A DNA stretch of 64,000 bases from an uncultured Williamsia sp. (GTDB taxonomy: Bacteria > Actinomycetota > Actinomycetes > Mycobacteriales > Mycobacteriaceae), in contig NZ_CANLWM010000005.1 in NCBI RefSeq assembly GCF_947494875.1, positions 310,001 to 374,000 on the forward strand. Direction: 5' to 3'. Below the pieces are notes generated by a model. The model saw only the letters and a program-made list of their open reading frames with translations, had not been told where the DNA came from and did not search any database. Within the stretch, counting starts at the first letter, position 1, and each line of letters starts with the position of its first letter. This document shows positions 12,257 to 16,589 of this stretch, piece by piece. Both the position numbers and the translations under genes were made by a program.

Positions 12257-14545
12257 GTGACCCCGGATGTCGGCCGTCGTCGGTTCCTCGCCTACGCCGT
12301 CGCCGCGCCCGTGTTGGTGGTGGCGGGTCGACTACTCGACCCTTTCTCGGCTCCGCGGGCTCACGCCGGCCCCACCCCGCCCCAACCGGGTGACCAGGTC
12401 GACCTCGGAGATCTTCTGACCTATGCAGCGATGCCGACCGCGCTCATGGCGACGCTGCGAGTGGACTCCGATGGAGTCGCCCACTTCGCGCTACCCAGGA
12501 CCGAAGTGGGCCAGGGGTTGTCCACGATGGTGACCCAGTTGATCGCCGAGGAGCTCGACCAGCCCCTCGACAAGATCGTGGTGACCCTGGAGAAGGCGCG
12601 GCCGGACCTCCTGCTCAACCAGCAGACCGGCGGGTCGAACTCGACGCGGTCCATCTACACACCTACCCGGACGATCGCTGCCCTCGCGCGGCAGCGGCTC
12701 CGGGCTGCGGCTGCGCGGGAATGGGGTGTGGCTCCGACCAGGGTCACGACCCGGTCCGGCGTCCTCATGGGTCCGGGCGGCCGCACGGCGAGCTACGGGT
12801 CGATGGCGGAGCGGGCCGCCTCGCGTACGGACGTGGCCGAGCACGTGACACTGAAGCACCCGTCTGACTTCGCCGTGATCGGCCGTCCGCTCGGTCGCGT
12901 CGATGCTCGCGCAGCGGTCACCGGGCAGAAGAAGTTCACACTGGATCTCGACGTAACCGACGCCTTGCCCACCATGATCCGGCGTGCGCCGACGGTCAAC
13001 GGGACGGTGCGCTCGGTCGCGAACCTCGCTGCGGTTCGGTCGATGCCAGGCGTCACCGATGTCGCGAGACTGCGCACCGGAGTCGCGGTACGCGCACGGA
13101 CTTTCGGGCAATGCATCGACGCGGTGAACGCACTCGTCGTCGACTGGGGGCCCGGCACCGTCGACGGGCAGTCGGACAGGAGCGTCCGGAAGGCTCTCGA
13201 CCGGGCGATGGAGCCCATGCCGCCCCAGCTCCCGCACTCCGGCGGTGTCGACATGACATTCCGGTTCGCCTTCCGCAACATCAGCGCCCTCGAACCCGGA
13301 TGCGCGATCGCCGACGTCCGGGCCGACCGTGCCGAGATCTGGACATGCGCCAAGGCCCCGTCGGTCGCGTTGGCGGAAATTGCTGCGGAGCTCGGTCTCT
13401 CGCCGACCGCCGTGACCCTGAACGTGATACCCGGTGGGGGATCGTTCGGGCGCGCCCTCTTCACGGACGCCGCACTGGATGCTGCGCTGGCTTCGCAGGC
13501 CATGGGCAAACCGGTCAGGCTGATGGTGCACAGGACCGACGACGTCCGGCACGGACGCATGCATCCCATGGCCGTCTCACACGTGCGTGCGCTCTGGTCC
13601 GGGCGCGACGTTGTCCAGATGGACCAACGACACTCCTGCGTCCAGCTCGACCTCAGTTCCGGGATGGGTGATGTCGTCGCGGCGTCCGGGCACCTCATAC
13701 CCGGGTTGGCGCTGCTGCCGCTCGTCAAACTGTCGTATGTCCTCAGTCAGAACGTGCCGTACGACGTCGGCGCGGTCTCGCAGGACGTCTCCCAGGCGTT
13801 CGACGTCGGACAGTTCCGTACGGGCAGTATGCGCCAGGTGTTCTCGCCGGACTCGCGCACCGCGACCGAGCTGGTGATCGATCGCATCGCCGAGGCGCAG
13901 GGTCTCGATCCCTACCGGTTCCGGATGAAGTTTCTCCGGGACGACCGCATCCGCGCGTGCCTTCGCGAGGCGGCCAGAGTCGGTGACTGGGGCCGGACTC
14001 TTCCGCCGGGGGTGGCTCAGGGCGTGGGCGTTCACGGAGAATACCGTTCGGCCGCAGCGGTGTTGGTCGAGATCGACTGTTCCGAAGCGACCACGTCGCG
14101 CCGCATCCGCAACGCGATCGCCGGTCCACGCGTCACACGGGTGGTCGTGGCGGTCGACGTCGGCGTGGCCGTCAACCCGCGAGGCCTGGAAGCGCAGATG
14201 CAGGGAGCGGTGATGGACGGTATCGCGCAGACACTCACGGCCGGCCTGCATTTCGATCGCGGCATCCCGCTCGAGGGCAGCTGGGACGACTACTTCTACA
14301 CGCGACAGTGGAACTGCCCTCTGGACCTGACGGTGGTCGTGATGCCGCCGACGAGCGAGTCGCCGGGCGGTGCAGGGGAACTCGCGGTGGCCCCGACGAT
14401 GGCCGCGGTGGCGTGCGCCTACGCCCGTGCGACCGGCGTGGTTCCCACGCAGTTCCCCATCGCTCATGGACAGCTCGGGTTCACACCCAAGAAGCGCAGC
14501 GTGCTCCCACCGTCGCCCGTCGACGGTCTGGCACACGTGTTCTAG
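12257..14545 (+). CDS. Molybdopterin-binding large subunit, isoquinoline 1-oxidoreductase (IorB)-like, Tat-exported
   Basis: A 762-aa large subunit of the xanthine dehydrogenase/aldehyde oxidase superfamily, closest in layout to isoquinoline 1-oxidoreductase beta chains. It hydroxylates an N-heterocycle or oxidises an aldehyde using molybdopterin cytosine dinucleotide. The N-terminus GRRRFLAYAVAAPVLVV, ending near ARAHAG, is a Tat signal, so export in folded form is predicted. Cofactor motifs include EVGQGLSTMVTQLIAEELDQ (about residues 80-100), PGGGSFGRALFTDAALDAA and SPGGAGELAVAPTM with the catalytic base Glu708. It is followed by its 2Fe-2S subunit. No cytochrome c, MoCo chaperone (XdhC) or transporter gene is nearby. 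The substrate is unknown. Confidence 0.85.
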   Translation: MTPDVGRRRFLAYAVAAPVLVVAGRLLDPFSAPRAHAGPTPPQPGDQVDLGDLLTYAAMPTALMATLRVDSDGVAHFALPRTEVGQGLSTMVTQLIAEELDQPLDKIVVTLEKARPDLLLNQQTGGSNSTRSIYTPTRTIAALARQRLRAAAAREWGVAPTRVTTRSGVLMGPGGRTASYGSMAERAASRTDVAEHVTLKHPSDFAVIGRPLGRVDARAAVTGQKKFTLDLDVTDALPTMIRRAPTVNGTVRSVANLAAVRSMPGVTDVARLRTGVAVRARTFGQCIDAVNALVVDWGPGTVDGQSDRSVRKALDRAMEPMPPQLPHSGGVDMTFRFAFRNISALEPGCAIADVRADRAEIWTCAKAPSVALAEIAAELGLSPTAVTLNVIPGGGSFGRALFTDAALDAALASQAMGKPVRLMVHRTDDVRHGRMHPMAVSHVRALWSGRDVVQMDQRHSCVQLDLSSGMGDVVAASGHLIPGLALLPLVKLSYVLSQNVPYDVGAVSQDVSQAFDVGQFRTGSMRQVFSPDSRTATELVIDRIAEAQGLDPYRFRMKFLRDDRIRACLREAARVGDWGRTLPPGVAQGVGVHGEYRSAAAVLVEIDCSEATTSRRIRNAIAGPRVTRVVVAVDVGVAVNPRGLEAQMQGAVMDGIAQTLTAGLHFDRGIPLEGSWDDYFYTRQWNCPLDLTVVVMPPTSESPGGAGELAVAPTMAAVACAYARATGVVPTQFPIAHGQLGFTPKKRSVLPPSPVDGLAHVF

Positions 14546-14590
14546 ATCCGCCGTGAACACCAGTCGGCGCCGGCAGAGACGAGGGGAAGC

Positions 14591-15079
14591 ATGCCCACAT
14601 TCACACTGAGAGTGAACGGTCGATCCCGAACGGTCGACGTCGAATCCGACGTCCGGGTGCTGTGGGTGCTCCGGGACATCCTGGGGATCACGGGCCCGAA
14701 GTACGGCTGCGGGATCGGGGTGTGCAAGGCGTGTACGAGTCACATCAACGGTCGGGCCTTCAACCCGTGCTCGGTGCGGATCGGCGACATCACCTCGACC
14801 GACGAGATCACCACCATCGAGGGACTTCCGGCGACCGTCGGCGCCGAGCTGCATCCGATGCAGGAGGCCTGGCTCGACGCCGATGTCTCCCAGTGCGGTT
14901 ACTGCCAGCCGGGTCAGATCATGGCCGCCGTCGCCGCAGTGGCCGAGGTTCGAGCACGCGGCACCGAGATCAGTGACGACGAACTCGACGAACTGCGCAA
15001 CGTGTGCCGATGCGGCACCTACTTCCGCATCCGAGAGGCCATCCGCGACGGTGCCGCCCGGATGGCCGATCAGGGCTGA
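14591..15079 (+). CDS. 2Fe-2S small subunit of a molybdenum hydroxylase (IorA-like)
   Basis: A 162-aa electron-transfer subunit for the preceding large subunit. A plant-type ferredoxin domain carries one cluster through C40, C45, C48 and C60 (CGIGVCKAC...C). The C-terminal helical domain carries the second cluster through C102, C105, C139 and C141 (QCGYCQPGQ and CRCGTY). All eight ligands are present. It has no Tat signal of its own, so it would have to piggy-back on the large subunit if exported. An AGGGG-like ribosome-binding site (GAGGGGAAGC, 14580-14589) precedes ATG 14591. The large-then-small order is the reverse of the usual small-large order. Confidence 0.88.
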   Translation: MPTFTLRVNGRSRTVDVESDVRVLWVLRDILGITGPKYGCGIGVCKACTSHINGRAFNPCSVRIGDITSTDEITTIEGLPATVGAELHPMQEAWLDADVSQCGYCQPGQIMAAVAAVAEVRARGTEISDDELDELRNVCRCGTYFRIREAIRDGAARMADQG

Positions 15080-15195
15080 GCAGCGCAACTCGAGAAGAAC
15101 CCTGAGCCCGTCCCGTCAAGCGGTCTGTCCACACCCCGTGGGCCCTGTGGATGGACGGATTGGCATGTGACCGCGCGGCAGTGAGGCTGCCGGAC

Positions 15196-15645
15196 ATGGA
15201 CTTCGACGACCCGATCCCGCCCCTCGAGAGCGCAGAGGACCCGTTCACGTCACCCGAGGAGCTGCGGCAGCGGTGGCGCGCTCTGATGGGGCCGCTCGGC
15301 TTCTCGGAACCGCTCGTGTGGGTGGCGCCCGTCCACCCCGACCACACGCTGCACAAGGCACTGATCCAGGTGGAGCGGACGCTCGTGCCGGACTCGTACC
15401 TCGCCGACCTGCTGATGCTGCGCTTGTCGGAGCTGATCGACGGCAATGAGGACCACGTCAGCGGGTTCGCCCTGCTGCTGACACGACCCGGCAGCAACGG
15501 CGTCTCGCACTGGGACCGGGGATGGGCCCGTCTGCTCGCGAACGCTGCCCGGGTCTTCGACGTCCCGGTCGAATCGATCTTCCGCGCGAACGCGAGAGAT
15601 GTCCGGGAGGTACCTCTCGTCGCGGACGAACACACCGCCGCCTGA
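15196..15645 (+). CDS. Hypothetical protein, orphan
   Basis: I do not recognise this 149-aa protein. It is acidic at both ends (MDFDDPIPPLESAEDPF; the C-terminus is charged), soluble, with no signal peptide or membrane segment, and its centre (LIQVERTLVPDSYLADLLMLRLSELIDG) looks alpha-helical. The codon third positions are strongly G/C as in real genes. In-frame starts are ATG 15151, GTG 15181 and ATG 15196; 15196 is chosen because GTGAGG lies about nine bases upstream. It sits alone between the molybdenum hydroxylase genes and the micro-gene cluster, and its role is unknown. Confidence 0.6.
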   Translation: MDFDDPIPPLESAEDPFTSPEELRQRWRALMGPLGFSEPLVWVAPVHPDHTLHKALIQVERTLVPDSYLADLLMLRLSELIDGNEDHVSGFALLLTRPGSNGVSHWDRGWARLLANAARVFDVPVESIFRANARDVREVPLVADEHTAA

Positions 15646-15680
15646 GCGACCGGACGAACCAGTTGCGACCACCCTCAACT

Positions 15681-15725
15681 TTGATGAATCGGATCCTTAC
15701 TTCGCAATACGACACTTACGGTCGC
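15681..15725 (+). promoter_or_regulatory. Promoter region of micro-gene 1, duplicated upstream of micro-gene 3
   Basis: This 45-base block aligns without gaps to 16244-16288 at 33 of 45 positions, ending in the identical TTACGGTCGC. The TACGGT at 15717-15722 fits a TANNNT -10 element and begins 52 bases before the ATG. Micro-genes 2 and 3 have the same element at 52 and 53 bases. No canonical -35 is visible, so the shared upstream GAANCGGA (15686-15693) may be an activator or alternative sigma contact. Confidence 0.55.
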
Positions 15726-15768
15726 AGTGCGGACGCCGTGGGGTGTCCCGTTCGGGAAAGGATCGATC

Positions 15769-15888
15769 ATGGGCTCTGTGGAGAACATCAACGCACTGGT
15801 CACCCTGTGGAACAGCCTCGGCGGCGCCCCGAGCGCCGGTGTCGGCGGACTCGGGCTGGGCCAGCTGCTCAGCGGTCTGTTCGGCTGA
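15769..15888 (+). CDS. Micro-gene 1: 39-aa Gly/Leu-rich peptide
   Basis: A 39-residue peptide starting MGSVENINALVTLWNSLGG and ending in GLGLGQLLSGLFG. It is one of three tandem short genes sharing the start MGS, a hydrophobic segment and a Gly/Leu-rich tail. The reading frame is supported by the upstream box TTCGGGAAAGGA (15751-15762), an SD-like site identical in all three, by the matching -10-to-ATG distance and by a private terminator at 15898-15929. No signal peptide is evident. Size and composition recall the small mycolylated PorA/PorH peptides of corynebacteria or phenol-soluble-modulin-like amphipathic peptides, but this is analogy only; I do not recognise a family. Confidence 0.65.
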   Translation: MGSVENINALVTLWNSLGGAPSAGVGGLGLGQLLSGLFG

Positions 15889-15897
15889 GGTTCGACC

Positions 15898-15929
15898 ACG
15901 ACGGCTCCGGATGCGTCCGGAGTCGTCGT
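15898..15929 (+). terminator. Hairpin terminator after micro-gene 1
   Basis: A 14-bp stem with one G-T wobble (left arm 15898-15911, right arm 15916-15929) and loop TGCG begins 10 bases after the stop codon. There is no U-tract, as is usual for actinobacterial intrinsic hairpins. Confidence 0.7.
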
Positions 15930-16013
15930 ACTGCGCGGTCACATCTGCCGGCCGACGATGTATGACTGCAAACAACATGCACAACAGCGAACCATTCATT
16001 CACGGTGGCGATC

Positions 16014-16019
16014 TACCGT
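16014..16019 (+). promoter_or_regulatory. Probable -10 element (TACCGT) of micro-gene 2
   Basis: TACCGT begins 52 bases before ATG 16066, the same distance as TACGGT before micro-gene 1. The surrounding bases ATCTACCGTCAC resemble the ATTTACGGTCGC of the other copies. The rest of the 45-base block is more diverged here. Confidence 0.45.
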
Positions 16020-16065
16020 CACCCGAGCGGGGCGTGCCCGCGACAGTTCGGGAAAGGACTTCACC

Positions 16066-16146
16066 ATGGGATCGCTGCAACAGGTGTTCACCGTCATCGA
16101 GATCGTCAAGCTCCTTCAGAGCCTTGGTGGCCTGCTCGGAGTGTGA
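16066..16146 (+). CDS. Micro-gene 2: 26-aa amphipathic peptide
   Basis: Encodes MGSLQQVFTVIEIVKLLQSL followed by GGLLGV. On a helical wheel the residues separate into a hydrophobic face (L4, V7/F8, I11, V14, L17) and a polar one (Q5, T9, E12, K15, S19), so an amphipathic helix with a Gly-Leu tail is expected. It shares MGS, the SD-like box TTCGGGAAAGGA (16047-16058) and the promoter spacing with its two neighbours, and it ends in its own perfect hairpin. The repeated architecture, not the length, is what makes this tiny frame credible. Confidence 0.62.
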   Translation: MGSLQQVFTVIEIVKLLQSLGGLLGV

Positions 16147-16162
16147 GGGCCGCGTCGAGCCT

Positions 16163-16193
16163 CGTCGCCCCCGGTCCAGAGCCGGGGGCGACG
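16163..16193 (+). terminator. Hairpin terminator after micro-gene 2
   Basis: A perfect 12-bp GC-rich stem, CGTCGCCCCCGG (16163-16174) pairing with 16182-16193, with a 7-base loop, 17 bases after the stop codon. No U-tract follows. Confidence 0.75.
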
Positions 16194-16243
16194 TGTGTCC
16201 ACGGATATCGGTATGACCGAACCACTCGCAACGTCCACAAAAT

Positions 16244-16288
16244 TTAACGAAACGGACACATAGTTCGTGATCTGACATTTACGGTCGC
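16244..16288 (+). promoter_or_regulatory. Promoter region of micro-gene 3, duplicate of that of micro-gene 1
   Basis: Ungapped 33/45 match to 15681-15725. The -10-like TACGGT at 16280-16285 begins 53 bases before ATG 16333. Conservation across an intergenic region that is otherwise diverged suggests shared regulation of the micro-genes. Confidence 0.55.
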
Positions 16289-16332
16289 GGAGACGGGCGC
16301 ACCGACGCGTCCGATTCGGGAAAGGATTCACC

Positions 16333-16458
16333 ATGGGCTCGTCAGACCTCAGCGCACTGCTCGGACTGCTTTCGACGGGAAGCGCCGGCGGCGACACCGA
16401 CCCGACCACCGGCCTCGGCGGTTTGCTGGGTGGCCTCCTCGGCGGCCTGTTCGGCTGA
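16333..16458 (+). CDS. Micro-gene 3: 41-aa Gly/Leu-rich peptide
   Basis: Encodes 41 residues starting MGSSDLSALLGLLSTGSAGG and ending GLGGLLGGLLGGLFG, with a near-perfect GGLL repeat and the same terminal GLFG as micro-gene 1. The SD-like box TTCGGGAAAGGA at 16315-16326, the promoter spacing and a 20-bp private terminator repeat the layout of the other two. The centre (SAGGDTDPTTG) is a short polar linker between two hydrophobic stretches. Membrane or mycomembrane insertion is plausible; function is unknown. The nearest downstream feature is a convergent tRNA. Confidence 0.65.
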   Translation: MGSSDLSALLGLLSTGSAGGDTDPTTGLGGLLGGLLGGLFG

Positions 16459-16467
16459 CGTCGGTCA

Positions 16468-16511
16468 CACGACGACGCCCCCGGAGCGCAGGCTCCGGGG
16501 GCGTCGTCGTG
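16468..16511 (+). terminator. Strong hairpin between micro-gene 3 and tRNA-Val (bidirectional)
   Basis: A perfect 20-bp stem (16468-16487 with 16492-16511) and a GCAG loop starts 9 bases after the micro-gene 3 stop. Because the tRNA cluster reads towards it from the other side, it probably terminates both transcripts. Confidence 0.8.
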
Positions 16512-16517
16512 TCCTGG

Positions 16518-16589
16518 TGCGCGATACTGGGATTGAACCAGTGACCTCTTCCGTGTCAGGGAAGCGCTCTCCCACTGAGCTAATCGCGC
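16518..16589 (-). tRNA. tRNA-Val (GAC)
   Basis: On the minus strand a full cloverleaf is visible: acceptor GCGCGAT paired with ATCGCGC, D-loop region AGCTCAGTGGGAGAGC, anticodon arm CTTCCCTGACACGGAAG with anticodon GAC, and T-arm GGTTCAATCCC. The discriminator base is A; CCA is not encoded. It is the last tRNA of a Gly-Cys-Val unit transcribed from the promoter at 16817-16845. Confidence 0.95.

Follow-up and report, generated by a model that had tools for sequence, protein, structure and literature searches.

The Williamsia window that we analyzed (a single stretch of 64,000 nucleotides, considered as a whole) contains three micro-frames of 39, 26, and 41 codons in one tandem array. These are very probably real micro-genes that belong to a narrow lineage and have no match in the family libraries that we searched. 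We suggest, tentatively, that their products could be exported helical peptides of the cell envelope, most likely of the mycomembrane, and that they are perhaps acylated at an invariant Gly-Ser.

The tandem array and its sequence elements

The micro-genes, and all of the elements of the units described here, lie on the + strand. Gene 1 (15769-15888) would encode a peptide of 39 amino acids (P1, MGSVENINALVTLWNSLGGAPSAGVGGLGLGQLLSGLFG), gene 2 (16066-16146) a peptide of 26 amino acids (P2, MGSLQQVFTVIEIVKLLQSLGGLLGV), and gene 3 (16333-16458) a peptide of 41 amino acids (P3, MGSSDLSALLGLLSTGSAGGDTDPTTGLGGLLGGLLGGLFG). An initial annotation of this DNA had described three frames that begin with MGS, each with the same box, a TANNNT element, and a 3' hairpin, and we found all of these in the sequence. 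Across both strands of the window, there are 244 ATG-initiated frames of 20-60 codons, and just three of them start with MGS, which are exactly these micro-frames.

The TTCGGGAAAGGA box lies ahead of gene 1 (15751-15762, where we propose that it is a ribosome-binding site), gene 2 (16047-16058), and gene 3 (16315-16326). The genome (4,770,481 bases) has three exact copies of the box, all within the array, and no copies of the pattern read backwards. If up to two mismatches are allowed, the window has 3 matches, as compared to a mean of 1.82 for shuffled sequences, and 27 of 100 shuffles reach 3. Because this looser count lies within the range of the shuffles, the signal is carried by the exact copies. 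The proposed -10 elements are TACGGT for gene 1 (15717-15722), TACCGT for gene 2 (16014-16019), and TACGGT for gene 3 (16280-16285), which begin at -52, -52, and -53 relative to the start codons. As to the claim that each gene has its own promoter, leader, and terminator, the motifs are indeed present three times, and the case for separate transcription units consists of these sequence motifs.

We compared the scores for pairs of units to those from 500 dinucleotide shuffles. Units 1 and 3 score 88 (the highest shuffle scored 19), units 2 and 3 score 27.5 (equalled by 1 of 500 shuffles), and units 1 and 2 score 17 (equalled by 8 of 500). If we consider the leaders alone, then the number of shuffles that score as high is 0 of 500 for 1 versus 3, 0 of 500 for 2 versus 3, and 5 of 500 for 1 versus 2; for the coding parts alone, the corresponding numbers are 0, 3, and 221 of 500. 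By these scores, units 1 and 3 are clear paralogues, well beyond chance, and unit 2 is tied to unit 3 mainly via its leader.

Upstream of gene 1, a block that includes the promoter region and the leader (15654-15768, or -115 to -1) is 81-88% identical among the gene-1 orthologues; gene 3 has a conserved upstream block as well (16218-16332). Identity falls to 59-74% for -230 to -116, which is a poor control because different genes are found there in different species. The conserved block includes the proposed -10 element, a possible leader hairpin (see below), the GGGAAAGGA site, and, further 5', a AACTTTGATGAA-like block some 80-92 bases ahead of the start codon, at 15677-15688 for gene 1 and in the matching part of 16218-16332 for gene 3. 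The AACTTTGATGAA-like block is similar in genes 1 and 3 in three species, with a weaker resemblance in gene 2, and it might be the site for a regulator.

Each gene in the window is followed by a GC-rich hairpin: 15898-15929 for gene 1 (terminator-like), 16153-16203 for gene 2, and 16467-16512 for gene 3, whose hairpin has two perfect 21-base arms and separates this gene from the tRNA-Val gene that converges with it. The folding energies of the 75-base stretches that contain them are -35.7, -40.6, and -56.3 kcal/mol, respectively. These hairpins have no T-run, and a terminator scan reported none. The idea of a private 3' hairpin for each gene holds for all three genes in the window and fails for gene 1 of W. 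serinedens, which has none. A second hairpin, which the initial annotation does not mention, can form in each leader, 5' of the box (15731-15748, 16027-16041, and 16295-16312 for genes 1, 2, and 3). In the alignment, its pairs join columns 9-14 with columns 21-26, and 90.2% of cells are paired, versus 29-52% when the pairing is slid. For gene 1 of W. serinedens and of W. deligens, the minimum-energy fold of the leader differs from this possible hairpin. There were no two-sided changes in the leader hairpin, and 500 of 500 shuffles scored as high, so the hairpin gives no proof of a covarying RNA.

Could these loci be structured RNAs or leaders, with the frames being incidental? The conserved upstream block, the possible leader hairpin, and the strong 3' hairpins are what such a locus might show, but the evolution of the frames argues otherwise. 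The initial annotation had proposed conservation of the frames as a check, and genes 1 and 3 passed it: both are unbroken in both relatives. For gene 1, in three pairs of species, pS is 0.25-0.28 and pN is 0.061-0.077. For gene 3, pS is 0.19, 0.34, and 0.41 and pN is 0.062, 0.196, and 0.231 in the three pairs, and the constraint is weaker in W. deligens. pN is below pS in all six pairs, although individual values are rough because the genes are short. Differences in length among the orthologues are whole codons (gaps in threes), and gene 1 of W. serinedens starts with GTG. Given the intact frames, the lower pN, the gaps in threes, and the GTG start, we regard it as very probable that both genes are translated. 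We have almost no doubt that these two genes are coding, and gene 2 is probably coding. Also, the window has no Rfam matches other than tRNAs, and the hairpin pairs lack two-sided changes. We consider it highly improbable that these are RNAs with incidental frames.

Genomic neighborhood and occurrence

The neighbors of the array are tRNA genes, a PGPGW protein, and oxidoreductase genes. The array converges with the adjoining tRNA-Val(gac) gene (16515-16589, - strand) in all three of the genomes that carry it. The tRNA cluster by which the locus can be recognized in both relatives starts with this gene. Both W. serinedens and W. deligens carry intact copies of genes 1 and 3 next to these tRNA genes, with no gene 2 in between. 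(Sequence searches for P2 covered its own genome.)

Other genes near the array are less stable. Just 5' of the array, 15151-15645 encodes a protein of 164 amino acids with no Pfam match; in W. serinedens, it is matched as two pieces in different frames, and the 20 kb that we compared from W. deligens contain no match. The gene for a molybdopterin-binding oxidoreductase and the gene for a 2Fe-2S subunit are at 12257-15079, and neither has a match in the 20 kb from either relative. The GNAT, AFG1, and PGPGW genes are retained in the stretches from both relatives. Thus, the micro-genes persist while adjoining DNA is lost. The three species share no retained partner gene immediately upstream of the array, consistent with a product that is self-contained.

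We also used the neighborhood to consider if the peptides are precursors of a modified peptide, or signals that are cut from a leader. In P1 and P3, the N-terminal part is conserved and the C-terminal part is repetitive, which could suit a precursor. However, we scanned 10 neighboring frames between 8062 and 20135 with Pfam and recognized no modifying enzyme, protease, or dedicated transporter (3 of the 10 frames have no match at all). We view precursors as very unlikely.

A profile built from six sequences gave convincing E-values in just 3 of 401 genomes from the family, all of them Williamsia (3 of 8 genomes of that genus). The host does come from the mycolic-acid group, as had been expected; the anticipated spread to Gordonia, Rhodococcus, or Dietzia was not borne out. 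Another 25 genomes, all outside Williamsia, had weak matches (E = 0.036-0.80), and at the one locus per genome that we inspected, there was no MGS micro-frame on the matched strand. In three other Williamsia genomes, the tRNA-Val site has other sequence instead of the array; for two more, the tRNA cluster was outside of the stretch that we fetched, and these were covered by the whole-genome profile search. Because it is absent from 5 of 8 Williamsia genomes, the family is dispensable.

The box followed by RTGGG occurs in 5 of the 401 genomes, namely the 3 Williamsia and two others, and we rejected the two others because their frames are of 501 and 114 amino acids and are not micro-genes. Upstream DNA from gene 3 has many weak matches across all 8 Williamsia genomes and real ones in just three; the best of the other matches (E = 2.6e-4) has no micro-gene and was rejected. 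In the genome that contains the array, a GGA-type site followed by ATGGGNTC has 24 matches, versus 8 for the pattern read backwards, and the only Gly/Leu-rich micro-frames among the 24 are the three known genes. (This pattern leaves out serines that are encoded by AGY.)

In keeping with the view that the peptides match no described family, Pfam and NCBIfam gave nothing for them. P1 had a single chance-level match among PDB sequences (E = 0.24). Searches of plasmids found nothing for the array DNA or for P1, and searches of phages found nothing for P1, P3, or the Rhodococcus peptide described below. Viral contigs contain five matches to the box pattern, but four of these precede a frame of 7 residues and one precedes a frame of 675 amino acids, so we consider them to be unrelated. 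(The four viral contigs share a box-like site before a 7-residue frame that begins with MGTTPK.) Our literature searches, which covered open PMC papers, gave no title or abstract on the MGS-peptide families of Williamsia or Rhodococcus.

A second family of MGS peptides

With a looser version of the box pattern, we found four matches outside of the arrays in 61 genomes, and one of these opens a frame of 30 amino acids (MGSAGIDFNVAFEAFLKWLSVTFGGGIGLG). The pattern required ATGGG, so the glycine that is common to the two families is built in. This Rhodococcus peptide recurs in 12 of the 28 genomes of the genus, with up to 5 matches in each, some of them partial. It is also found in 16 plasmid records, all from Rhodococcus, and 9 of the 16 matches cover at least 80% of the query. 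In 15 of the 16 records, no gene is listed under the match; the sixteenth has no annotation (the gene table used for all of these is, by its own note, incomplete).

A profile for the Rhodococcus family matched 28 of the 401 genomes over most of its length (E < 0.002), including 12 from Rhodococcus and 16 from three other genera. At this threshold, it matched none of the 8 Williamsia genomes. (Overall, 79 of the 401 genomes reach E = 0.5, and those beyond the 28 have weak or partial matches.) At the 16 loci outside of Rhodococcus, all of the frames are 29-32 amino acids long, with a sequence that resembles a ribosome-binding site. Nine of these begin with MGS, two with MGP, two with MDS, and one each with MGT, MSF, and VSA; the serine of the second family is common, not invariant. 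Among 18 distinct 30-codon genes that begin with MGSAG, the mean pairwise differences at the three codon positions are 6.5, 3.0, and 10.9, which is the pattern of coding sequence. We found no recurring partner gene in seven plasmid regions (two of which have the same neighbors), and the member of the family that we tested has no match in Pfam or NCBIfam. The leader is foldable, and so is a stretch after the frame.

We rejected homology between the Williamsia and Rhodococcus families, as nothing could be aligned beyond MGS: hhalign aligned 1 and 3 columns, and pairwise comparisons of the peptides were within the range of shuffles (at the lowest, 160 of 2,000 scored as high). The second family shows that a similar layout recurs, without demonstrable homology. 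We also did not accept a kinship of the Rhodococcus peptide with PorH, for which 17 of 2,000 shuffles scored as high, given that this was one of ten comparisons. Since the second family is multicopy in some Rhodococcus and is found on plasmids, the question of what such peptides do can be tested in laboratory strains.

Peptide properties and possible role

Gly2-Ser3 is invariant in all 7 of the Williamsia peptides. AlphaFold2, run with alignments of three rows, predicts helices at residues 2-17 and 26-38 of P1 (mean pLDDT 73.4) and at residues 3-18 and 24-40 of P3 (mean pLDDT 74.9), with a pTM of 0.38 for both. With medium confidence, P1 and P3 are predicted to be helix-loop-helix. The hydrophobic moment is equalled by 2.6% of the peptide's own shuffles for P1, by 14.6% for P2, and by 1.1% for P3, so P2 is not clearly the amphipathic helix that it had been taken for. 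Judged by eye, the peptides do lack a signal sequence, as had been noted. The net charges of P1, P2, and P3 are -1, 0, and -3.

Short hydrophobic helices, in several copies and with a structured leader, might also be micro-proteins of the inner membrane: either small regulators that act on a membrane protein, or a type I toxin that is paired with an antisense RNA. The long Gly-rich segments and the lack of a basic tail count against this. A promoter scan of both strands was empty, so it gave no antisense promoter, but it missed the proposed sense promoters as well. We think that a role in the inner membrane is unlikely.

Secreted surface-active or antagonistic peptides, such as phenol-soluble modulins or leaderless bacteriocins, are another alternative. 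These are also short, leaderless, and clustered, with hydrophobic helices, and the patchy occurrence of the tandem micro-genes (3 of 8 Williamsia) would make sense for them. However, leaderless bacteriocins are usually cationic, while the Williamsia peptides are neutral to acidic. Using Pfam, we recognized no dedicated exporter or other transporter and no immunity gene in the 10 neighboring frames, although an immunity gene could escape recognition, and the lack of a retained upstream neighbor across the three species also argues against this explanation. It seems to us about as unlikely as a role in the inner membrane.

Our preferred reading remains that these are peptides of the envelope. 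Lineage-specific and self-contained micro-genes, duplicated in tandem, would encode helical peptides of 26-41 residues without a signal sequence. Each unit would have a promoter of its own, with the leader hairpin shielding the short mRNA, the GGGAAAGGA site driving high translation, and the 3' hairpin terminating the transcript. Removal of the methionine would leave an N-terminal Gly-Ser. The peptides would then leave the cell and form small helical oligomers in the envelope, with the mycomembrane as the most likely site. O-acylation at the invariant serine might serve as their anchor, as in PorA, PorH, and ProtX of Corynebacterium, which are unrelated. The expression, methionine removal, export, acylation, oligomer, and envelope location are steps that we infer.

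PMC12632848 describes PorA (45 amino acids), PorH (57 amino acids), and ProtX as mycomembrane proteins that lack signal sequences and are linked to O-mycoloylation, and states that their route across the inner membrane is unknown. The same paper reports that the assembly of PorH at the surface requires O-mycoloylation of PorH or PorA. In C. urealyticum, the cell-wall channel is a 37-amino-acid peptide on its own, according to PMC5944148. PMC11066868 indicates that mycoloylation has no strict motif and favors a serine among small residues such as Gly or Ala, and its authors liken this to the motif for the acylation of ghrelin (GSSFL).

If the Williamsia peptides are parts of the mycomembrane, then helical envelope peptides without a signal sequence are not confined to Corynebacterium, and the unknown route by which such peptides are exported could be studied with genes that are short and genetically simple. 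Gene finders often pass over frames of this length, and annotations may therefore lack entire classes of envelope peptides. A broader proposal is that, in mycolic-acid bacteria other than Corynebacterium, several independent and overlooked families of Gly-Ser micro-peptides are the missing small mycomembrane peptides. They would be anchored by acylation at the Gly-Ser end and encoded, on chromosomes and plasmids, in self-contained units that each comprise a promoter, a leader hairpin, a strong ribosome site, the micro-frame, and a terminator hairpin. This strikes us as doubtful.

We do not place the peptides in the PorA/PorH family. All of P1-P3 have fewer than 60 residues, as expected for that family, but the locus is not groEL2-ppk2 and the suggested kinship found no support from sequence similarity: in six comparisons of P1-P3 with PorA and PorH, the lowest number of shuffles that scored as high was 215 of 2,000. 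(The lengths and acylated serines of the PorA and PorH sequences that we used agree with PMC12632848.) Nor did the peptides show an MspA domain, as all three lack a Pfam match. The genome that contains the array has five separate MspA-type matches, as two neighboring pairs and one single match, on three contigs. Because of these, the genome is not missing a general porin, which argues against a need for another one.

The Williamsia micro-genes can also be set beside other families of small peptides. Like most members of the second family, their products begin with MGS, and the two families are also alike in size, in having a hydrophobic helix-like stretch and then a Gly-rich tail, in the strong ribosome-binding site, in the foldable leader and post-frame stretch, and in being present in several copies (in some genomes). 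The second family is found at scattered loci instead of in a tandem array. As compared to PorA, PorH, and ProtX of C. glutamicum, the Williamsia peptides are similarly tiny, helical (by prediction, for P1 and P3), without a signal sequence, and from a mycolic-acid host, and the likeness in working to PorA and PorH is drawn from these features; also, porH and porA adjoin, as the micro-genes do. The micro-genes differ from porA and porH in their locus, in that each has promoter-like elements and hairpins of its own, in the MGS start, and in the Gly/Leu-rich second helix. Finally, PorACur (37 amino acids, C. urealyticum) is encoded at groEL2-ppk2 instead of beside tRNA genes, but by description, both it and PorACj (40 amino acids, C. 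jeikeium), which form channels from a single peptide, resemble the Williamsia peptides in size, in their helices (predicted for P1 and P3), and in needing no partner.
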